This document shows, one piece after another, positions 1,366 through 58,021 of a stretch of DNA of 64,000 nt. The notes beneath the pieces are model-generated. The model did no database searches and was not told where the DNA came from. It was given only the letters and a program-made list of their open reading frames with translations. The stretch lies in contig WIXG01000317.1 in NCBI GenBank assembly GCA_009869945.1, forward strand, positions 1 to 64,000. Direction: 5' to 3'. The position numbers were made by a program, and so were the translations under genes. Numbering within the stretch: the first letter of the stretch is position 1; every line of letters begins with the position of its first letter. Source of the DNA: Mesaphorura yosii (Eukaryota; Arthropoda; Collembola; Poduromorpha; Tullbergiidae).

Positions 1366-2531
1366 TCTTAATTAATAAAAGCACTCAGTGATCATTCCAA
1401 TTTCACCACACTTCGTTGATATTGGACCAGGATTCCAACTTGACAGACACTGGTATAGAAATGACAAAGCAGACACAGCACTCAGTCAACTCTGTTACAG
1501 ACACCAGTGATAACCAGTCATGAAGAATCAAGCAGTTAGGGCTTACCTATATCCTGCAAGAAGAATAGTTGAATTTTTAGCGAAAAACTAATCAAATTTT
1601 GGTATGTGGCACAGAAAACTTAATTTAGACGCCTAAAAGAAAGTATTTGCGTAGCTCTGATGGGACAAGTGGCACTTAATTTTGTACTAATTTGGTGAGC
1701 CGAAATAAATACACTGTTAGATTTTGCAAAATGAAATAAATGAAAACTGAAAGGATAAAATGTTACCAGGGATGCGGAAAACTAAATCCGAAGCCCTTGC
1801 CTTTTACATTTCGTAAATGTCAAACTCAATTTATTGACACTTGCTAATCGTTTCCGCTTGATTCGTATTTTGTTCTCCGCATATACAACAGGTTCAATGG
1901 AATTTTGCATACGCCTTGCCACAAAGAAAAGTTACCTTGCGTCTCAAAGCAGAGTTGCTTGACCGCTATGCGAGGCAATACACAATACAGAGGCTGCACG
2001 TTGACCGGAGCAAAGTCCCGTCACCCTGAGAATTGGATTTTGGAAAGCGTCAAGTCATTAATTTAATGCCTTATTTAAGCTAAGCCAGTTTTTGCCAATG
2101 CTAATGATTCCCATGCAGAGTTTCAACAAGCCATTGTTAGCTGTTGTTCACGTCAATCGTCTATGACCTGTATTTTCAGAAAGCTGGAGCCTCGAACGTT
2201 CTGATATGGAATTGACTTTGAACAATGAAACATTTAGTTAGGTTTTGTCCTGTCTTCAATTTGGTCAATCATGCGTCATCAATGTATCAAAGTCTTTTCA
2301 GAAAGCTAGCTACGTCAAATGAATTTCATTGTCTACGAAAGTTCGAAGCTGCGTTTCCGTAGATTGATCCTTTGCTGCTGAGCATGTCCGTCTTTCGTGC
2401 GATGGCCGCGAATAGCAGGTAATGGGACTGAAGAGAGTTCCAGTCAGCGGCTCTTCCAGCCTTGCGATTGAGTTCTTCAGTAGCATAAAGTTTGATAATT
2501 AAGGATTTTTAGCGGTGTATAGCGGTGAACT
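1366..2531. other. Divergent intergenic region TACC/NANS
   Basis: About 1.17 kb separates two genes transcribed away from each other, so it should hold both promoters and 5' UTRs. I see no convincing ORF, TATA box or RNA gene in it. Confidence 0.6.
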
Positions 2532-4600
2532 ATGTATTCACTTGAGCATCTTGGAATTGGTGAATCTAAGCCGTGTTTCATCATTGCAGAAGCTGGACAG
2601 AACCATCAAGGCAATCTGGAAACAGCAAAGGAAATGATTCGGATCGCAAAGGTTTGTGTTTGTGTGTTTATATCCTAGCGGAAGTAGATGAAAACGTCGA
2701 AGCTTCAACGATGCACTAAAATTAATATCCTGTTAGGAGGCTGGGGCCAGCTGTATCAAGTTCCAAAAGTCCCACCTTCCTGAGCGATTTACTAAGCGAG
2801 CCTTGGAAACACCGTATGACAGTATTCATTCCTTTGGAGCCACGTACGGGGAGCACCGAGCAAAGTTGGAATTCTCAGAGAGCCAATTACGCGAATTGCA
2901 ATCGTATGCACACCAGTTGAGCATACAATTCCTAGTGACGCCCATGGATAAGGCAAGTTGCGTCGGAATCAAACCGGCCTATTTTTCAATCCTCATTGCG
3001 TCTTTCCTCTGCAGACTTCCGCCGATCTTCTGATCAGTATGAATTTGCCGTTTATTAAAATTGGTTCTGGTGATACAAACAACTTCCCTCTGATTGAGCA
3101 TGTTGCAAAGACGAAGGTTCCAATTATTTTATCGACAGGTGAGCTTCACTCTCCAGTTCTTTAATCTTCGTGCTCCAGAATTTATTAGGGTAAGCTATTA
3201 ATCTAGCAGTAATAAAAACCAATTTGGCAGTGAAAAAATAAATGAATTCGGCGGTAAAAATTTATTTTTATTGCAACAGGTAACAATTGAAATTAGGTAT
3301 GAACAGAGCGTCAGTGGAAAAAACGACATTAGCAGTAATGAATCAGGGTATATCAGTAAGGCATGCGAATAAAAATGTACAATGGAATAATTATTGACGG
3401 AACAAAGCTTTTCTTAGTCCCCTCAGGCCGACCGCGACAAATATGTGTAGTGAAATATTCTATGGCCTGATTTCTTCCGTGTGTACTGCAGGAAACTAAT
3501 CCTGGGCGGAGTTCTTCTTGGTCACTTATGTCATCTGATTCTTGATCAGAATTATATGCTATTTGGCTGAGGCTGACTGTCATGCTCGTGCTGGAGACCT
3601 CTGCAACGTGCAGCGTCTTCAAAGTGCAACCGCCAACTGACTTTCAGTGTATTTGGTATTGCACCATACTGCTAGTTATATTTATACTGCAGTAATTTTA
3701 TTTTAAACCACTGATGCAATGTGCACTGTTTTTCATCTAAATCATACCACCGATTTCATTTATTCTGGGAACTCACTGCCACCTCATTTACTGCTAAATT
3801 CCTTTATTTTCTACTGCCGCTTTATATATAAGCAATTTATTAGCGCTTCTTTGACAGGAATGCAGACGCTCGATACAGTGAGACGTGCTCATGATTTAAT
3901 CAAAAAACACCACGAAGAAGTGGCGTTACTTCACTGCGTGAGCGCGTATCCCACCGAACCTGAAGACGTAAACTTGGCAGTGATGGACTTGTATCGGAAA
4001 GAATTTCCTGAAACAGTAATTGGTTACTCAGGACATGAGAAAGGCATTTATATTGCACTTGCGGCAGTTGCAAGAGGTGCGAAGGTAAATTCTTTGGTTT
4101 TATTGTTTCTACTCGCGACGCCTCTTGTGCCTCAATTTATGGGGGCTATAGTGATGGATCCATTTACAGGTGATTGAAAAGCATTTCACACTGGATAAAT
4201 TGCAAAAAGGATCAGACCATCAATGTTCATTGGATCCGACCGAGTTGGCCAATTTAGTCAAACAGATTCGGGAAGTTGAGGCAGCCATTGGAGTTCCTGT
4301 CAAGGTGAGTATCTAGCTGTAATGAAATATACGGAAGGTAATAACATGAAATATTTTCCGTAGAGAATTCTTCCGCGAGAAGAACCTTGTATGAACAAAC
4401 TAGGGAAGTCAATTGTATCAGAGAGACGAATGGGACCTGGTGAAATTACAGGAGAAGATCTTGCAATAAAAGTGTCCAGACCAAAAGGGATGAAGCCAGA
4501 GTTGATTGATTCCGTGATTGGGCTGTCGACTCGTCAAACGATTGAAGAAAATACTCCTATTGGGGTAGAAAACGGCGAAATTGTGCCGATTTTGAATTAA
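2532..4600 (+). CDS. NANS: N-acetylneuraminate (9-phosphate) synthase
   Basis: The enzyme condenses phosphoenolpyruvate with ManNAc-6-phosphate (or ManNAc) to make sialic acid in the cytosol. Six exons join in phase (2532-2651, 2737-2952, 3015-3138, 3858-4084, 4170-4304, 4364-4600) to give 352 residues, close to the 359 of human NANS. The NeuB barrel starts with CFIIAEAGQNHQGN and continues with KVGSGDTNNFP-like KIGSGDTNNFP, a YSGHE metal-site motif and EKHFTLD plus GSDHQCSLDP. The SAF (antifreeze-like) domain fills the last exon, starting at LGKSIVSERRM and ending ENGEIVPILN. Intron 2 has a GC donor (AAG|GCAAGT, AG at 3013-3014). Intron 3 (719 bases) contains an insertion-like element. The start ATG gives a normal N-terminus. 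It converges on CCT7. Confidence 0.96.
3200..3840. mobile_element. Foldback/MITE-like element in NANS intron 3
   Basis: Both ends carry tandem copies of a roughly 22-24 base unit beginning GGCAGT, in opposite orientation. On the left, units start near 3206, 3226 and 3250. On the right, the complementary units occupy 3746-3780, 3781-3794 and 3795-3818. The left unit at 3226-3249 and the right unit at 3795-3818 share GGCAGT plus AAAATAAA(K)GAATT with a one-base indel. A 270-base open frame on the minus strand (3353-3622) lies between them, with an acidic SDQESDDISDQEE stretch; I do not recognise it as a transposase. Element ends and target duplication are not resolved. Confidence 0.5.
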
Positions 4601-5097
4601 CTTCTCTACATTAATGCTCTTCCTTGTTTACAAAACTTTAGTAAGAAACCCACAAATCTCGTAAAACGCTTACAGCCCAATTAGCATGTATTTGCGGTGT
4701 GATGTGTATGGCAGCCCTCGGTTCACCACATAACCTTTTTCTTTGGACTGAAATAAATTTTTGTCGCGAAGAATGATGTTTTGATATAATGACAGTAAAA
4801 CGACACTTGTTTCAAGACTATGCAGAAATTCAATTCAATGATAGACAGTGTCAATTGGAATGTTGAGTAGTGTATAATAAAGGTAACAGCATTGGGTTGA
4901 TTTTAATTCATTTTGGAGTGAAGTAGAAGTAATAAGTATAAACCAGGTTAACATATTTGTTAGTGCATTACAGTTAAAGTAAGTTAGCGCATTTACCACA
5001 CTTGTTTATTGACGCAGATGATGGAGTGAGAGATGAAATACTTGTCCTGTGGACAGTTTTAAAAGCTTGGTTGAAGACGGAATTTGAGGATGGTTAC
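4601..5097. other. Convergent 3' region NANS/CCT7
   Basis: This holds the two facing 3' UTRs. A plus-strand AATAAA at 4752-4757 can serve NANS, and a minus-strand AATAAA (complement 5005-5010) lies 88 bases past the CCT7 stop. I see nothing else in it. Confidence 0.7.
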
Positions 5098-7179
5098 TTA
5101 GCCCATCATGCCACCGCCAGGTCCATACGGATTGTTTGCGGACATGTCGGAACCACCACTTTTGGGGCTTTTGATAGTTTCATCAACCGACAGAATTAAA
5201 CACGTTGCTTCTGTGGCCGCTGCAATGGCATTGATTTTTACGATGGATGGCTCCCAGACAAAAGCTTTGAAGTTGTCTTCAATGTCCTCATTCATTATGT
5301 CGACTCCAAACCAACAATCTCCTAGAATGGAACAAGGAACAAGAATCAGTATTTGTATCAGTATCAAAATAAGCAGATAATTTACCTTGCGCATGTCGCT
5401 GACGCAGTTTGTTAAGTATATTTGTAGCATCAAAGCCAGCGTTGTCGCAGAGCTGCCTTGGAATAATTTCAAAAGCTCTGGCCATCGCACCAATTAGCAG
5501 TTGCTCTCTACCAGCAATGTTTCGCGAGTAGTCACGCAAATACTTTGATATTTCCATCTCAATCGCTCCACCACCTACATCAGAAAGTTTTAAATTTGAA
5601 TTTCTTATTTCAACCGTCAGGAATCAAGAAGCTGAAGAAGCTCACCAGCAACAACAGCATCATTCTTCATCGCACGTCGTACAATCATGATAGCATCATG
5701 GAGCGATCTTTCAGTTTCATCCATAAATTGCAGCGTGCCACCTCGAAGTATTATGGTGCAAGTCTTCGCTTGGGGACAGCCCTTGAATAAGTTGAATCGA
5801 TCTCCACCCACTTGCTTCTCCTCGAAGAACTCGCAAGTTCCCATTGTTCCGTCGTTCAAGTCCGACACTGTAGAAAGAATAGCGCCACCACATGCTTTCA
5901 TTGTACGCTTTAGATCTTCTTCTTGAACGCGTCCAGCACAAAACATATTCCTGTACAATAATCATCAATCTGACGTCAGACTAAAAAAAAACTGGCGATT
6001 ATAAAAATAGAGCATACCTGTCCGCGAAATACTGAGTGGCAACATCACCAATTGGAAGTTTGGATAAAACTACTTGTGCACCACTTGCATGAATTTTGCC
6101 CAACTTATCGTACAGGATATTCCATTCAGCGTCGATGACTTTTTGATATTCCTACAAGAATTTGTTTAAATAATCATTTGATCAGTCGTCTCGTCATTTG
6201 AGAAAAGTGAGTATAAGCGCAATGACCGTTACCTCCACGTTTTCAATTCGAATTTCAGCGTTGTCCCTTTCAGCCTTGAGCTCCAGTTCAATGTTCAACA
6301 AGGCAATTTTCGGATTTTCGTAAGTTTTCGGCTGCATTTCAAATCCAGCATACGAGAATGTCTTCTTGAAGCCCACTCCAGCAACTAGGAATGAGTCTTC
6401 CAACCCGCCGCCCTGCACTTTCTTGATTCCAATCATGTCGAGGGGCAACAGCTCATCAAGTTGCATGACTGCATCCACGGCAATTTTTGCAAAGAAGTCC
6501 TTCTGGTGATGAACTAGTTTAGAACTCAACGCAGTGACAGCACATTTCTCTAAAGTTGCCCGTCGCTCTTCATCGTTTTGGTTTCCAATCCGGACCGACA
6601 ATTCATTAATGCGGTCAATCGCCAATTGGGCAGCCTTACGGTATGCTTTGACAATTATCCTCGGGTGCACTCCTTCTTCGACGTATCCTTTTATCTGCTT
6701 CAAGAATTCTCCAGCTAAGATTACAACACTTGTTGTACCATCTCCAACCTACAAAAGAATGAGATGCACGCATTTCAGGGCAATTTTACTTCACTAAATT
6801 AAAAATTTTCAATAATTCATACCTCTGAGTCCTGAGATTTTGCGATATCGACAAGCGTTTTAGCAGCAGGATGCACAACGTCCAATTTCTTCATGATGGT
6901 CGCGCCGTCGTTAGAAATCGTGGTTCGGCCACCTCCGTCAACGATCAGTTTGTCCATCCCTCTTGGCCCGAGCGTTGTGCGAACAGCCTCCACCACTGCT
7001 TGGCAGGCATTGATGTTTGAAATCAACTGCTCCTTCCCTTGAGCACTCTCAGTTCCCTCACGGAGTAGAATTATTTGAGGTTGCTTGATTACAATCACAA
7101 GAAATGGAACTAATTAGTGCAACTCAAATTGGAGACATGAAAGAACGAGAAAAATTGAAACACAAAATCAACTTACCAT
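5098..7179 (-). CDS. CCT7: T-complex protein 1 subunit eta (CCT7)
   Basis: CCT7 is one of eight subunits of the cytosolic TRiC/CCT chaperonin that folds actin, tubulin and WD40 proteins. Eight pieces join in phase: 7179-7177 (ATG only), 7083-6823, 6748-6233, 6151-6018, 5950-5646, 5574-5386 and 5321-5098, giving 543 residues, the same length as human CCT7. Group II chaperonin motifs are intact: [17 protein letters not shown], the ATPase GDGTTSV, and GGGAIE in the equatorial domain. The eta-specific tail [10 protein letters not shown] is followed by a short Gly/Met tail (PGGGMMG). The start codon stands alone before its splice donor (ATG|GTAAGT), then the next exon begins [10 protein letters not shown], aligning with human PTPVILLKEG. 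Confidence 0.96.
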
Positions 7180-9450
7180 GTTTACTAGGGTCCAACGATA
7201 CTACCAGATTGAAAATTTGATACTAACCACTTCTACAATAGAATTTTGGAGACAGAGATACAATTGCTAACGCCTCAAATCCGGCAATGACAAATTATAA
7301 ATCAAATTCTACCCTTGCGAGAGTATAGTACGAGTCCGGTGCGAACGAAGAGAGCATGCTTTTGCTTTCGGTGCTTTTGTGTGCAGTGCAGAAAAGTTCT
7401 TGTGCAGCCAAGTCAAAACCAAGGAAAACTTGATTCAAAGACTATTCCAGAAGAAAAAGTCATCCCTCAATACACGAGACCTGCTAACCCACACAAATCT
7501 CTCGTTTCTATTTATTCACTCCGCTTTGTCCTCGTGTGGCCGATAATTCGTACGAAATTAGCGTAAAACAAATTGAACAGATTTATTAAACCCTTAGATA
7601 AATTTTAACAAAAAACTGAGGAATTAATTGGCAGTCGGCAGTTGAAGCATCGGGCTTATGGTGGGGGGCTTATGTCGTGGATTCATTCAAATTGTTTAAT
7701 GCTAAAGCGCAGTACTATCTTGGGTACAGTGAACATAATGCCATGAGACAATGTAAAGATGAGAATTTGAGAATTCTGTTGGGTATCGATGTTTTATTTC
7801 CTTTGAGTATAAACAGCGACGTTGAGCCAGCATTCTGTAAGCAATAATTTGCAAGCGTGAAATATAAATAAGTAATTTTTATTCCTTGCTCCAGAAATAA
7901 TTATAGGGTCAAATGAAATGAAATGTGAAATTCGTTCATTTGGTAAGAAGTGCGATGCAAGTCTGTAATCAGCATGCAGAGGGGAATGCGAAACAAAAGT
8001 TATGAAGTGTGAAGAAGGCAATAGTAGAAGTCAAGAGTCAAGATTGGCAAATCATTTACATGGCATTGTTGAAATGAAAGCTCGTTTCAAAAACCCCTTT
8101 CGCTGTGGCTGTCTTCTTTGTTTGGGTGCAGTGCAAACTGGCTCACTTTTTCTTGATCGCAGCGCAAACCTGCTCTTATTGTTTCAGTTTCTGCAAGGTG
8201 CCTAATCAATTCTACTGCAATCAGATGGAAAAGGAAGTCGAAATTGAAATGAGAATTGATAAAGTGCTTTTGTTAAGAACGCGTTCCTCATTTGTCATAT
8301 TCACTACAGGTTGCTTTCATTCACCATTGGAAGCTGATGCTCCACATTGCCGTGGGTCTGTATGCGAGGTTGTATACCGGTTTGACACTAAATTGACAGA
8401 CTCAAGTCGAGCTCGAGGTACCACAACAATAACATGTCAATCGGGTCGTCCCATAAAATCTACACTGTATTCTTACTTTGATTAACTTGCTAATTGATCC
8501 TCATTGAAACGATGTTACATCATGAACAGCCAACCAGCTTGAACTTTCTAACCTGGATTCTCGCACGTCTGGTTGGTCAAGCAGAAGTACCAGTCTGACA
8601 CTCGAAGCATTCTTCAGGCAGACAGATGCAATGTGCAGTGAGCCAACTGAATATAATAGCTATGCACTTTTACTCCCCACTTTAGGTCACGTCACTTAAG
8701 ATTCTAACTGCGAATCAAACAGCGACCAAAAGTGAATGAAAATGTTAGGAGAAGTTGTTCGAGTGAAATAATTTTTCCAACAAGGTAAAGTTGACATTTA
8801 GTAGCAATCATTTCTTTGTCTCGAGAAAAAGCAACCAAGGTTCATGGCAGCGTGTAAGTAAAATCGAAAGAGTCTTATCTTGATAACCATTCGATGCGTT
8901 CTCCATTCATGTTCAATGGTGTGGCAATTGAGTCAGTGGCAATTGGCAATCTGCCGTTGGGAAGAGGCCCCAAGAAACAAGCAGTAAACAACAACCAGAA
9001 GGTACAAGTTAGATTCAGTTGATGACTGATACAGATTCAGAAGAAATGTAATTATAACATTGGCCTCCTTTGTATTCAGTTACACACTAACGAATCTGGG
9101 TGTATGTGCGAGTTACAAGTTGATCTCGAAGTGACTTTGTGTATATTTGATTTGTGGCTGCGATCAGTGAGCCGTGTATATTTTTATCATAACACGTTTT
9201 TCAAGTTCAAGATGAGAATTAACTTTGGTTTCTATTTCATTTGAGGCTCATAGAGTGTGAAGTGTGAAGTGTGAGGGTCAATTCTCTTCCATGCAAAGTT
9301 GGTAACTCTGTGGTTTGCTGAATCCATGGACAAATGTCACGCTAGGAGCCGACAAGGTATCTGTGTCGATGCATTTGAGTCATCATGAAGCCAACGTGCT
9401 ATAATGGGTGTGATTCAATTGCCTGATAAAGCGACCTCGTCTTGAAATCT
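7180..9450. other. Divergent intergenic region, 2.3 kb
   Basis: This lies between the CCT7 5' end (minus) and the next gene (plus). It is AT-rich with several open frames up to 126 codons, none with recognisable composition or splice partners. A short GTGAAGT tandem repeat is present near 9252-9272. It presumably contains both promoters and 5' UTR exons. Confidence 0.5.
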
Positions 9451-11975
9451 ATGCTCCTAGAAATGGTAAGTCATCTAAAATTCATGTGTCTGGTAACTGA
9501 ATAAAAGGTTCTCCTTTCCTAGGATAATGGCAGAATCCGACAAAATGGCAGGCCTCATTCGAAAATTGGGCCTGCTCCTCCACCAAAGCCGAGCTATGCA
9601 AAGGCTAACAGACGGAACAGCGGGCAGCGATCCGGAAGTGTCCCCTCTGCACTGCCACTTCCTCCTCCGCCTCTCGCGGCTTCCAGCTCATCTACTAGCA
9701 GGCTGTACGAAACTAGTAGACCTGGTGTCTCTGACATGAATCCAGGGCGGAGGAACGGAGTAGCTGCGAATATCCGGGGACAAAGACAAAACTCTCCAGC
9801 TGATAGTAAAGAAGATTTTATCAACGATTTGTTAGGGAGTGAGGATGAGAATGAGGATTCAGAACGAACTTATGTCAAGCCAAAGGCAGTCGGAAATGGA
9901 ATCAGGAAATCGCCATCGGCAAGTGGCAAGGAGAGTGGCAGCTCTTATGGTCAGAGTCGTCAGAGTAATGAAAGAATAGAGGAGATGGTACAAGTCAGTG
10001 AAAAAGACGAAGGTAATTTGCAGAACGTGGCAGTTTGAGATAATTAATTTCAACAGCCCTTGCAGAATGAATGCTTATGTTACAAAATGACATCATTTTT
10101 ATCGCAGATGACAAGAGTGGTGATGCAAACTGTTGCTTAAGTCCCAAGGAACTTTTACTCCTGAAAGTGAAACCAGCGTGCAGCAAAATCAGGCCATGCT
10201 GTCAAACCCTGTTCTCAAATCTGGTTGGCGTCCTGATCGGAGCCATCGTGACTTATGCAACTCTACAAATGGGCTTAAGTCCCTCGTCCATATTGACTAT
10301 GTCCGTCAGGTCGTATCGGCCAATCGAGAGTTTTTGGGCGTCGCCCATTTCTGGAATTAGGAGTGAGGGCCCACAGCCGTGGATCACGATGGACTTGAGT
10401 CCTCTTATAACAGGAGTCAGGCAGCTGGACTCTACAGACAAAGGAAGTGAAGTGTTGGATCTGGATTCTTTATCCATTGTTCTAAACGTTACTCATATTC
10501 AGTTTGGCAGTGACGATTACGCTACAAGTGCTGTCTTAAACGAATCAGTGAAAGTGACCAATTCCACGTCAAGAACTCATTTAGTTAAGTTCATTTTCAA
10601 GAGAAACGATAGTGAGGCTATGAATTCAAGGTTCAGAGTTAAGAGACAAGTTAGGACTATCACTTCAAACTCGAAAGATGAATCCGGTAATGATTTCAGC
10701 GAGACAGCAGCATCGTCGGAAGAGGATTCGATTGTGGTTCTACATGAGCAAATAGGAAACGAAGATCAATTTGAGGCCTTCATTCCACTCGTGGAAGACG
10801 TCCAAGAAAAGCTGACGCATTTGCTCCTCCGTTACATCACAATCTCGCCCCAGCATTTACTGGAGTCGCTCAAATACGCGAAGAGGCTCCGTGTGCTTGA
10901 GCTGGATCAAGTGAAGTTGCTCGGCTACTTTGATGGACGCACTCAATTACCTGCTCTATCCAAATTCAGTCTGCACGTGGTGAACAGCAGCAGCCTGATT
11001 TCCACGGCGGCACCCATCAAAACCTACCTCTTCTTTGACAAGGACGGTTACTGGCGTATAGAGAAAATTGCGTCACTTGGCGTGGACATCAACTTAGCTT
11101 TCGATGGACGCAAATACATGGGAATCAGCCACTCAAAAGGCCAGCTAGTTTCTCAGCTTCTCATGACCAACACCATCCTGGAGCAATTGTATATGAATGA
11201 CCGGGTGTTTCAGCTCCAGGATTTGGCGTTAAGTTTTGTTGAATTGAACAACGACCTCGTGCCCGCTTCGCTCGAGCATTTGTCGCTTTCATCTGTCACA
11301 TTCAAGAATGGGCAGTCACTAGAAAAGCTCCTGCAAAAATTGGTGTATTTGAAGAGTCTGGAGCTGAACAACGTAACCGGCAGCTCGGGGCTGAAGGTGT
11401 CAGATTTGCCATCATCACTCAAACACTTAGCCTATGGCAGGTCTTCTTTGCACTACACGCCAGACGTGCTGCTTAATTTAGATTCGCTCTACCTGGATGC
11501 CATCGAGGGCGAAGAGCAGCTGTTTCATAAATTCAACTTTGTCTTCAACGCAAGCCGGGTTGCAGTCTCTGAATTGCCGTCGCCGATTCAACCGCACACG
11601 TTCTTGAAGAGAATTCTCCAAATGAGTGCAGTGCAGTGGATTTACATGGAGAACTTTGACAGGACAGATGTGACGACGCAGAACAAGACGGCACATTCAG
11701 ATTTCACTGAAATCGAATGGTTTCTAATCAGTGCAGGTGTCCCTTCAACGGTTGAAGTGTTTTTGCTCGAAAAGAATGTGACTGCTGGCACGTGGTCTGG
11801 AAACGGGGTCACTATTGAGCAGCACAAGCACCTGTGGTACGACCTATTTGGCATGGAGAAATTTTGGACGCGCGCGTCCGTCGATGTGCTCAACGGAATG
11901 AAGGGACAAAAGTACATCACCTACTATTTGAACAAACATGACGAATCCGACGACTTCACGACGATGGCGCAGTGA
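9451..11975 (+). CDS. Type II membrane protein with leucine-rich ectodomain, unknown family
   Basis: Three exons join in phase (9451-9465, 9523-10012, 10108-11975), giving 790 residues. Residues 1-200 are predicted cytoplasmic: proline- and serine-rich, with an acidic DLLGSEDENEDSE patch. Cysteines at about 177, 178, 193, 199 and 200 sit just before a single membrane segment at about 203-225 (LVGVLIGAIVTYATL). With no signal peptide this implies an extracellular C-terminus. The ectodomain has many N-glycosylation sequons, an RVKR|Q furin-type site at about 345-348, and leucine-rich strands such as LRVLELDQVKL, LEHLSLSSVTF and LKSLELNNVTG spaced irregularly. I see no cysteine in the ectodomain, so there are no disulfide-capped LRR ends. 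The short first exon is inferred from phase and donor only. I do not recognise the family. Confidence 0.8.
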
Positions 11976-12185: not shown

Positions 12186-12641
12186 TCATTTTCCAGCGCC
12201 TCCGCCGCCGGCTCCTCCAACTCCACCCTCGTGCCATCCCCAGTCGAGGTTGTGATGGCCATGCCAGCCCCATCCATGATGAGGATGCCAGCCGTGGTGG
12301 TGCTTGTGTTCGTATTTGTGATGATGGGGCTTCCACCCATGTTTGTGTGGCTCGTGTTTGTGGTGATGAGGCTTCCAGCCGTGAGGCTTGTGCGGTTTCC
12401 ATCCATGATTCTCCTTGTGATGGTGCTCCTTATGATGGGGTTTCCATCCATGGTGTTCATTATGATGGTGCTCCTTGTGAACTGGCTTCCATCCATGGTG
12501 GTGCCAACCGTTCTGGTGCAGTTTTGGATGGTGCACATGCACCTTCTTGTGATAATAATGCCCAGCGTTCGTGGCAGGCCAAACCAAACACCCGAAAAGC
12601 CCCGATAGAAGAATGAAGGAAGCTATGTTTCTAGTCTCCAT
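12186..12641 (-). CDS. Secreted histidine-rich repeat protein
   Basis: An intronless ORF of 151 residues. METRNIASFILLSGLFGCLV is a signal peptide, with cleavage likely after ATNA. The mature chain is dominated by His, Lys, Gly, Trp and Pro, built on a repeated GWKPHH(H/K) module (GWKP occurs five times), then a Gly-rich tail GGVGGAGGGGAGK. Such chains bind transition metals or join cuticle or mucus matrices; this is inference from composition. The ATG at 12641 is chosen because the upstream in-frame stretch is not signal-like and the TATA box is placed for a transcript starting near 12720. Other frames here are open only because the codons repeat. Confidence 0.78.
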   Translation of the reverse strand: METRNIASFILLSGLFGCLVWPATNAGHYYHKKVHVHHPKLHQNGWHHHGWKPVHKEHHHNEHHGWKPHHKEHHHKENHGWKPHKPHGWKPHHHKHEPHKHGWKPHHHKYEHKHHHGWHPHHGWGWHGHHNLDWGWHEGGVGGAGGGGAGK

Positions 12642-12742
12642 ACTGTACTGTTTGCTCAACAAAATACAATTGTCAACGTCAACTTCGTGTTTGTACAATT
12701 TCCGTCGCTCACGAAATGGTAGAAAGTCGTTCGCGATGCTGA

Positions 12743-16301: not shown

Positions 16302-19300
16302 TTAATTCTTGGTATTGTTGATTTGTCTGGCGTGAACTCTTGATCGACGAACAACGCGTCTCGCTGTACGAGGCGGATTACCTACGGTGACAAAGTTGTT
16401 GGTGGGGTAAGCTCCGCGAGTGGATGGTAGGTCGTAGTTGTTTGAGTAGACCGTGTTGGACTGGTCGGTGGGAAATCTCATCGTCAACGGCTGCCTGTGC
16501 GAGCAGGCAGGAGTGGCACTGGCAGGTTGTGCCGAGGGCTGGAGCGAGGGACAGAATGGCACAACAGCAGGACGAGTGAAGGCGTTTGATCGACAGTCCG
16601 GGTAGAAAATAACGGGTACGTTGGAAACAACGGCACCAGGGAACTGGGAGTAGTCAATGAATTGGGGATCTTGTGCCTGAGGCTGCTGTTGCTGACTGCA
16701 TCCACCGTTGCATCCGCCGTTCCCATTTCCGGAAGCAGTCTGTTGGTTTTGGCTTCCTTCTTGGGCAGGAACATCCCGACGATTATCGTAATTTATGCCA
16801 CCTCCCATTCCACTTGGTCTTGGACGATCTTCATACGTGACAGTTGGAGAAGGATATGTTCCCTGAGAGCTGGGTGAACCCGAAACAACTCTACTGGGTA
16901 GCTGTTCGGAAGACGGGTAGGACTGGCCATCGGGAGTGCGTATACCGAAGGATGTTGTTGGAGTGCGACTGCCAGAAGTTCCCGAGGTTTGTGGTCCAGC
17001 TGGATTCCGTGAATTGCCGTCTCTTCTTGGGTGATCTGACAGGAAACAAAAAACAGCTTGGTTTCGCTTTGCTGAGTAAATTATGTCGTCCGTAGTTGCT
17101 TACCGAAGCTCCCAGCGCTGCTGGAAGGATATTGAGGAGTGGTCTCTGTGAACTTGGGCGTCTGCTGGATGTAGTTTATGGTTGGAGATGGAGGGCGATA
17201 ATCTGTGCTTGGTGCGGGTGGGGCCCGTGTCTTGGAGCCAGATTCCTCCGATCCGTAAGTACTCAAGTTTTCATTTGAGTTAGGATAAATTATGTTCTTG
17301 TTGCTTCCACCAGCGTAGTAATTGTCGTCATCGCTTTCTACACTTTGTGGATATGGCTTGCTGCCAACTTTAAAATTTGGTTGAGTGATATGAACGCTAA
17401 TTTCGGGCACTCGGTGACTTCCGCTGGTGGGTTCTGGTGGTGGGGTCAGGGAGCCTGTGACTCTGTGTTCAACGTTGTTGAAAGTGCCTTCCTTCCTGTT
17501 ATTTGTCGGTGATACGGAATTGGCAGGAGCTCGGTTGTATCCTGGGACAACCGCTGGTTGCCGGTTGGGTGCCCGATCGCCTTGTCCACCGGATCCTCCT
17601 CTTTCAGCCGAACTTCCTCCACTTCCACGCAGCCGTTCCGGAGTTGCAGTCGGTTTGGATCCTCCGTATCCTTCGGATGCGGGCTTATTTGTCGGCCCAC
17701 CTTCAGAGACAGGGGTAAGTGTCACGTCAATAAACTTTTACTCCTCTTTTGTTGTTGCGAAATGTCTTACCAGTCGGAGTACTTGCTTGAGGTCGCACTT
17801 CATCTACAAAGCCAAGTAATCAAATAACTGAATTTCCTTTAAAATGTACAGAAGCTTTCGAGTGCTTTAACCGTATCACCTACCATTTTCGGCTGCTTCG
17901 CCGTAACCTTGCACAACGGGCTCATCTTTACAAAAAATTTAGTATATCATTACTTTACCTTTAACCGTAAACAGTGCTTCTTGCTTACTGTTTTTTTTGC
18001 TTGCTGAATTTCCTCCATATTCTACTCCTGTTCCAGGACGGTCGTTGGCTGGTGCTGGTGAAACTTTGTTTTCAACTCTTACAGCAGCGGGTTTGGCAGC
18101 TTCAGGAGTTGGCCCATTGTAGCCCGAGTTTTCCTTGTTGACTGTAAAACAAACCGTTTACGTTAAATATCCTTTATGTGCTTCATATTCCATTGTTATT
18201 AGGTCCAATCCTTCCCTTTTGAACTCAAACGTAGTTATTTGCAAGCATTTGTGTAAAATCAGCAGTTCTTGAAACATGTGAGGTTTGTCACTTTGACAAA
18301 GGAATATTCTGAGGCGTGAGGCCAGTTTGTAGTGTTATAGGTGGTGGCTTATGGGAAATGGAATTAGTAAACGAAAGCGATTATGCCACATAATTATGCA
18401 AAATTCAACAGAATGCAGGAAAACAGACGAGACTTGTTACTCACGACATTGATCCAGTTCACAACTCATAAAATTAATTGGCACGACCAGAGTTTAATAC
18501 TAATTATTAATTATTCACTTCATAAATACTTCAACCATTACCCATACTTTTCAAGACTGTAGTAAAAGGCAACGAGCTTTACCTGGTCCCGTGACGCCAT
18601 CGAGGCTTGCTGCTGGCCCGAAAGTCAGCATAACGGAAAGAGGAGTCTGGTCATTCTTCTTGGAAGCGGGAGCTGCCGTCGGTGGAGTTGGTCGTGGTGC
18701 GGGAGCAGAAACCGGGGCCGAAGTGGTTGGGTGGCTTGGAATGGGCACACTCGCAGCTTGAAGAATTGGTTTCGGGTTGGCTGCCAAGATGCTCTGCTCC
18801 AGATTGTCACATTGCTTGGGAAACTCCAGCTGAGACCACCTGCGGTCATTTCCCTTCATTTCGGTGGTTCCTTCTGGGTGATCCTTCGGGTAAAATACCT
18901 TCAACGGCTGGCCCTGCACGAGAGACCTGTATCCCCATGAGTCGGATACGTAGTAAGTGATCTGTGGCTTGTCCAGCGGGTCGACGTAGCCGTAGCATCC
19001 ATACACGACGCCATCCTCAGCCTTGTTCTCGTGGTGGAACTGACCAAGCGGGCCGTCAGGTTTTATGTCGTAGCCGTAATTGTAGTTTCCTGTGCACCAT
19101 AGAAAGTTTCTGTATCACATGTCTTAAACGCTCTAACCCGGCTTTAACTACTTACCTTGTCTAAAATTTTGATTATGGTATTGGGTTTTATTCAAGTTGC
19201 GAATATTTACAACAACGACAGTTCCATTGGCATTTGGAACCTCATTTTTATCGTTGGACACAACTTTGGATTCGGCAACAGTCAGGTAGGTCAGGTACAA

Positions 19301-54842: not shown

Positions 54843-58021
<3,179 letters not shown>

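Follow-up and report, generated by a model that had tools for sequence, protein, structure and literature searches.

The DNA analysed here, a 64,000-nucleotide stretch of the genome of the springtail Mesaphorura yosii (the window), contains a gene for a protein whose leucine-rich module is shared with secreted proteins and with secreted serine proteases encoded in the same genome. We give an even chance to the reading that the window protein is a type II membrane protein, built from a disordered tail, a signal-anchor and a cysteine-free leucine-rich repeat (LRR) module, and that this module, common to the secreted proteases, binds a shared class of partner. Here, we will describe the gene and the predicted layout of its product, then the module family, its protease members and the history of its N-termini, and finally the roles that the module might have.

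Gene model and predicted membrane layout

The window gene comprises three plus-strand exons, and both introns, at 9466-9522 and 10013-10107, have GT-AG borders. After splicing, the frame runs through 790 codons without a stop, in agreement with the chain length claimed in an earlier note on this DNA. In-frame stops lie directly upstream of the first ATG; a second in-frame ATG has the better start context under the Kozak rules, and the protein may therefore have 786 residues. The features are:

9451..9465, plus strand: exon 1 (MLLEM, start codon), predicted from the DNA; alternative start at 9463
9523..10012, plus strand: exon 2, the N-terminal (cytosolic) part, rich in Pro and Ser and probably disordered, covering residues 6-168 plus base 1 of codon 169
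10108..11975, plus strand: exon 3, with the cysteine cluster, hydrophobic anchor, stalk, RVKR, LRR module and stop
10131..10202, plus strand: juxtamembrane cysteines 177, 178, 193, 199 and 200 (possible palmitoylation); similar clusters in paralogues C125 and C570b
10209..10277, plus strand: hydrophobic segment, residues ~203-225, taken as signal-anchor from the Kyte-Doolittle maximum
10635..10646, plus strand: RVKR, residues 345-348, a sequence motif and possible furin site in the stalk
10773..11876, plus strand: leucine-rich module core, residues 391-758, cysteine-free here, delimited by alignment and by profile searches of the PDB

Serine and proline make up 24% of residues 1-202, as expected from the Pro/Ser-rich N-terminal half described earlier, and a Pfam scan of the exon 2 part up to E 10 returned no match. 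The five listed cysteines are the only ones in the protein, none following residue 200, and the peak Kyte-Doolittle window covers residues 203-221, so that the juxtamembrane cluster and the single hydrophobic segment of the earlier description are both found. Four lysines or arginines flank this segment on its N-terminal side and two on its C-terminal side. All nine sequons (at residues 295, 313, 320, 335, 461, 590, 649, 694 and 725) lie C-terminal to the anchor, in an ectodomain that is indeed sequon-rich and without cysteines; shuffling gives a mean of 4.5, with nine or more in 223 of 10000 shuffles, which is mildly significant, and the complete lack of sequons in the N-terminal half, seen likewise in 1143 of 10000 shuffles, is not significant. 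The sequence fits a type II layout, its orientation being read from charge and sequons, and the protein is probably membrane-anchored, with its N-terminus predicted to lie inside.

The juxtamembrane cysteines may be palmitoylated and the ectodomain may be shed, both being predictions from the residues present. The furin-like site claimed earlier exists as a motif, RVKR being the single RX[KR]R in the protein, and is weak evidence for cleavage because 356 of 5000 ectodomain shuffles (7%) also hold such a motif; its counterpart in C5, an RIKR immediately before the module, lies ~47 residues further downstream in the alignment, and the two sites are not aligned.

An improbable alternative is that the N-terminal part has been mis-joined, with exon 2 belonging to another transcript and the protein starting near the hydrophobic segment, which would then be a signal peptide. 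Exon 1, with 15 bases only and predicted from the DNA, leaves room for this, as does an ATG at 10071, within intron 2, that opens the frame of exon 3; the GT-AG borders of both introns, the frame that stays open across the 490 bases of exon 2 and the hydrophobic segment N-terminal to the module in three paralogues all speak for the model given above.

Within the window, no copies of the DNA of this gene were found as repeats, and a protein search of the genome gave no second module match on the same contig. On the minus strand, 12186-12698 encodes a small protein, rich in His and probably secreted, with HGWKPHH-like repeats; its DNA contains a four-copy family of 45 bases, and the protein has no Pfam match at E 0.001. 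A cuticle-type gene lies at 16302-19090 (minus strand), with a Chitin_bind_4 match at 18905-19090 and long Pro/Ser/Gln-rich frames, three of which had no Pfam match at E 0.001 when scanned alone; that the frames form one gene is a guess. Further coding pieces belong to a NeuB-family (sialic acid synthase-like) gene (3719-4177, plus strand), a TCP-1 chaperonin (6194-6703, minus strand), a cytochrome P450 (29932-30405, minus strand) and a protein kinase (55454-55933, minus strand).

A family of cysteine-poor leucine-rich modules

The window protein is not an orphan, because its own genome (93 Mb in 1127 contigs) holds at least eight further genes with a cysteine-poor module of ~430 residues. Within this assembly, the feature that points to an arthropod is the set of 66 Chitin_bind_4 matches; a mitochondrial COX1 query gave no match, and Daphnia or a tardigrade, guessed at from GC content and short introns, were set aside. 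Protein searches with the window protein matched C5 (E 9.0e-39), C497 (2.0e-17), C309 (1.5e-11) and C1036 (7.6e-4), and a search with C5 as the query added C125, C17 and C570, the last with two tandem genes, C570a and C570b. Each aligned module copy sits in one open frame. Aligned with one another, twelve copies from nine genes have a mean column identity of 24% and agree fully at six columns, one of which is a tryptophan close to the C-terminal end of the module. The alignment and the tree built on it omit five contigs (C536, C569, C580, C581 and C823), the only additions from further queries, with partial matches to the module or its linker, which are possible extra genes or pseudogenes; the match on C569 contains several stops. 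Judged by sequence, this would be an LRR-protease family with membrane, secreted and protease members. A single-protein search of viral and prokaryotic contig collections, sensitive to close relatives only, confirmed no relatives. No Pfam model reached its cut-off for the module, and no title or abstract start among the matches listed from the open-licence literature names such a family. On the sequence, the interpretation given in the earlier note is supported for the LRRs, the missing caps, the one anchor and the cysteine cluster on its N-terminal side; it differs from what is seen here in that the gene has at least eight relatives in the same genome.

The leucine-rich repeats proposed earlier stand out in the spacing of the leucines as well as in structural profile searches. 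In residues 396-790 of the window protein, the strict LxxLxL pattern occurs six times, where shuffling gives 1.40 and reaches six or more in 10 of 5000 trials, and two looser hydrophobic patterns are only weakly enriched in the protein, their counts being reached in 320 and 371 of 5000 shuffles. Over all twelve module copies, the strict pattern is present 28 times against 12.0 expected, the highest of 2000 shuffles having 23; two copies, C5 and C309, contain none. With E 10 as the limit, a profile of the twelve copies matched 61 PDB sequences, the best being YopM (2.6e-6), and 59 of the best 60 of these 61 matches read as LRR proteins from their names or families; the remaining one bears the name antifreeze polypeptide. 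The E-value of YopM is a sum, and the three best matches have no significant single stretch (i-Evalues 0.13, 0.086 and 0.055). As a control, four of the twelve copies were made into a profile, and the same four sequences were reversed. The forward profile matched 17 PDB sequences, of which 15 are LRR proteins (several being the same protein) and only one, F-box/LRR protein 2, has E < 0.1 (9.9e-5). The reversed profile had one match, at E 1.1, which is not named as an LRR protein. The window protein alone found no PDB match at E 10.

It is very improbable, in our judgement, that the repeats are not LRRs and that leucine-rich composition alone explains the resemblance. This would sit well with Pfam LRR models that stay below their cut-off (LRR_2 reaches 18-18.6 bits at best vs 20.9), with the two paralogues wanting the strict pattern, with PDB matches that are mostly weak and with single-sequence AlphaFold models of exon 3 and of the module core that lack confidence (pLDDT 31.6 and 33.5, no residue at 50 or above). 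It is hard to reconcile with a profile whose matches are LRR proteins in 15 of 17 cases when read forward and in none of one when the same letters are reversed, and with an LxxLxL total above that of all 2000 shuffles. At every alignment column cysteine is present in at most five of the twelve copies, so that the family as a whole is without conserved cysteine caps, although most copies other than that of the window protein contain some cysteines (0 to 6 per copy).

Protease paralogues and variable N-termini

Three paralogues, C1036, C497 and C17, are apparent secreted serine proteases, and in each of them a pair of modules comes after the catalytic domain. C1036 is a single frame of 1443 residues. 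The Pfam Trypsin model matches C1036 at E 1.9e-38 and a part of C497 at 3.6e-25, C17 matches the protease part of C1036 at E 1.0e-37, and all three carry the histidine, aspartate and serine-region motifs AAHC, DIA and GDSGG. The C1036 protease matches 270 solved structures, and among the best 60 of them thrombins come closest (best 3.7e-28). A Sushi (complement-control) match in C1036 scores 12.5 bits, below the cut-off of 20.7, and the C497 part has no Sushi match in Pfam at E 0.001. Read by eye, the apparent activation site of the three proteases follows a leucine (RPL or KPL before VIHG, IING and IVHG), and the residue two before the cysteine of CxGDSGG, an aspartate in trypsin-like enzymes, is Ser or Thr. 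Activation after Leu together with this Ser/Thr position would fit an initiator-type protease.

Locus L009, which holds the C1036 protease-LRR gene, also has an adjoining match to the N-terminal GH32 model of Pfam (2.9e-19, at 7307-8101, minus strand). Its GC content is 0.54-0.59 at 2001-8000 vs 0.43 in the first 2000 bases. GH32 genes in animals are often of bacterial origin.

The remaining paralogues differ in what precedes the module. An N-terminal hydrophobic anchor recurs in C125, C570a and C570b, with cysteines before it in two of these three (CACC in C125, CC in C570b); the anchor region of C570a is short and without preceding cysteines, and its hydrophobic segment could be a signal peptide instead. 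The charge of flanking lysines and arginines favours an N-terminus inside for the window protein and C570b, and does not for C125 or C570a (2 vs 3 in both). Signal-peptide-like starts are found in C5, C309, C1036 and C17 and, read by eye, in C497. C5 and C309 are apparently secreted and have a heptad-like (coiled-coil-like) segment, again read by eye and, in C309, from raw DNA. Because the module also sits on such secreted proteins and on proteases, the earlier proposal of a receptor or ligand is incomplete, leaving out the closest context of the protein. The starts of C5 and C309 also weigh against a residence in the Golgi apparatus, in which the window protein would be retained by its anchor and palmitoylated cysteines and the LRR module would act as a luminal chaperone or adaptor. 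Many Golgi proteins are of type II and have cysteines next to the membrane segment; a cytosolic tail of 200 residues and a stalk with RXKR are unusual for Golgi enzymes, and we see only a slight chance of this location.

In the tree of the twelve copies, one group unites the first module of each protease (support 100/99) and another the C570 pair (99/99), and the window module pairs with that of the secreted C5 (89/91). The AU test, which presumes that a group was named before the tree and that long branches exert no pull, rejected a single clade of the four anchored genes (p-AU 0.01) and did not reject grouping the two secreted genes together (0.0515) or the window gene with C125 (0.0795). 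Since the window module pairs with a secreted protein and the single anchored clade is rejected, the N-terminus of the module family was apparently altered on more than one occasion, by a path of which we are unsure. Mapped on the tree, the anchored label takes three changes, possibly one gain and two losses; the strongly supported branches alone force one. The module tree has long branches and leaves five of its nine inner branches open, and the fork joining the window module and C5 also opens once the second module of C1036 is omitted.

Possible roles of the module

We envisage that the Pro-rich, disordered tail of the window protein would lie inside the cell, where it may bind adaptors, followed by the signal-anchor with its possibly palmitoylated cysteine cluster on the cytosolic face and, outside the cell, by a stalk carrying the cysteine-free LRR module. 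The module would recognise one shared class of partner or surface protein. In the protease paralogues, this binding would position the enzyme; the window protein would use it to retain or display that ligand on the cell surface, from which cleavage at RVKR may release the ectodomain. The orientation, palmitoylation, shedding, ligand and link to a protease cascade in this scheme are what we infer for the window protein. By analogy with mosquito complement, described below, the module probably serves for binding and is used on several vehicles.

The main rival is a role in cuticle or matrix, because the genome is cuticle-rich, with 66 Chitin_bind_4 matches, one of them at 18905-19090 of the window. 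The window protein would then be an epidermal or cuticle-matrix adhesion protein whose module binds the apical extracellular matrix, its Pro-rich tail could bind cytoskeletal adaptors (a motif type known for this), and the protease paralogues would act in matrix remodelling or moulting and not in defence. A Pfam scan of the window protein gave no matrix-specific domain, and thrombin-like proteases that carry additional modules are found more often in cascades of clotting or defence; we regard the matrix role as somewhat unlikely.

The predicted layout can be compared with several known systems. Toll and the Toll-like receptors likewise place an extracellular LRR domain on a single-pass membrane protein, and these and other LRR receptors are type I with cysteine caps; in the window protein, by contrast, the anchor is N-terminal, the ectodomain is cysteine-free and LRRNT and LRRCT caps are missing. 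Teneurins are type II proteins with a Pro-rich tail and a furin-like site, features that the window protein resembles, followed by EGF, NHL and YD repeats, for which neither part of the window protein has a Pfam match up to E 10. The protease paralogues recall ModSP/HP14/MSP and horseshoe crab factor C, which are secreted, multi-module proteases of the chymotrypsin fold: read by eye, the paralogues are likewise apparently secreted and multi-module, with apparent activation after Leu and not Arg/Lys. Initiator proteases of the ModSP and factor C type have a complement-control (Sushi) module ahead of the protease, at which C1036 shows the match below cut-off given above. The paralogues differ in the two LRR modules C-terminal to the catalytic domain; ModSP/HP14/MSP and factor C are not known to contain an LRR. 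The mosquito proteins LRIM1 and APL1 have a signal peptide, a coiled coil C-terminal to the LRR and disulfides, whereas the window protein has, by eye, a polar N-terminal half of 200 residues and a module reaching near the C-terminus.

In mosquito complement, the LRR proteins LRIM1 and APL1C form a complex with TEP1 and the pathway is regulated by SPCLIP1, so that LRR proteins and a non-catalytic serine protease meet in one arthropod complement-like pathway (PMC3764210). The mosquito LRR proteins are distinct from the protease homologue, whereas the module described here forms one chain with proteases or is carried on a probable membrane anchor and is without conserved cysteines. A link of the module family to defence is what such analogies would suggest. 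More specifically, and as a tentative idea that we think somewhat unlikely in its full form, one cysteine-poor LRR module may serve as an 'address' on initiator-like proteases and coiled-coil-like scaffolds, both secreted, and on anchored surface proteins, the anchored forms docking or competing with the proteases at the cell surface, which would give cell-bound control of an extracellular cascade with its recognition part after the catalytic domain.

If true, LRR recognition and serine-protease activation, which are separate in mosquito complement, would be joined in one gene family, and the same module would have been put on membranes through a changed N-terminus, so that secreted and anchored forms switch within one family. 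Without cysteine caps, the module would add an unusual type of extracellular LRR, and the family would make it possible to test how protease cascades come to be localised to cells.
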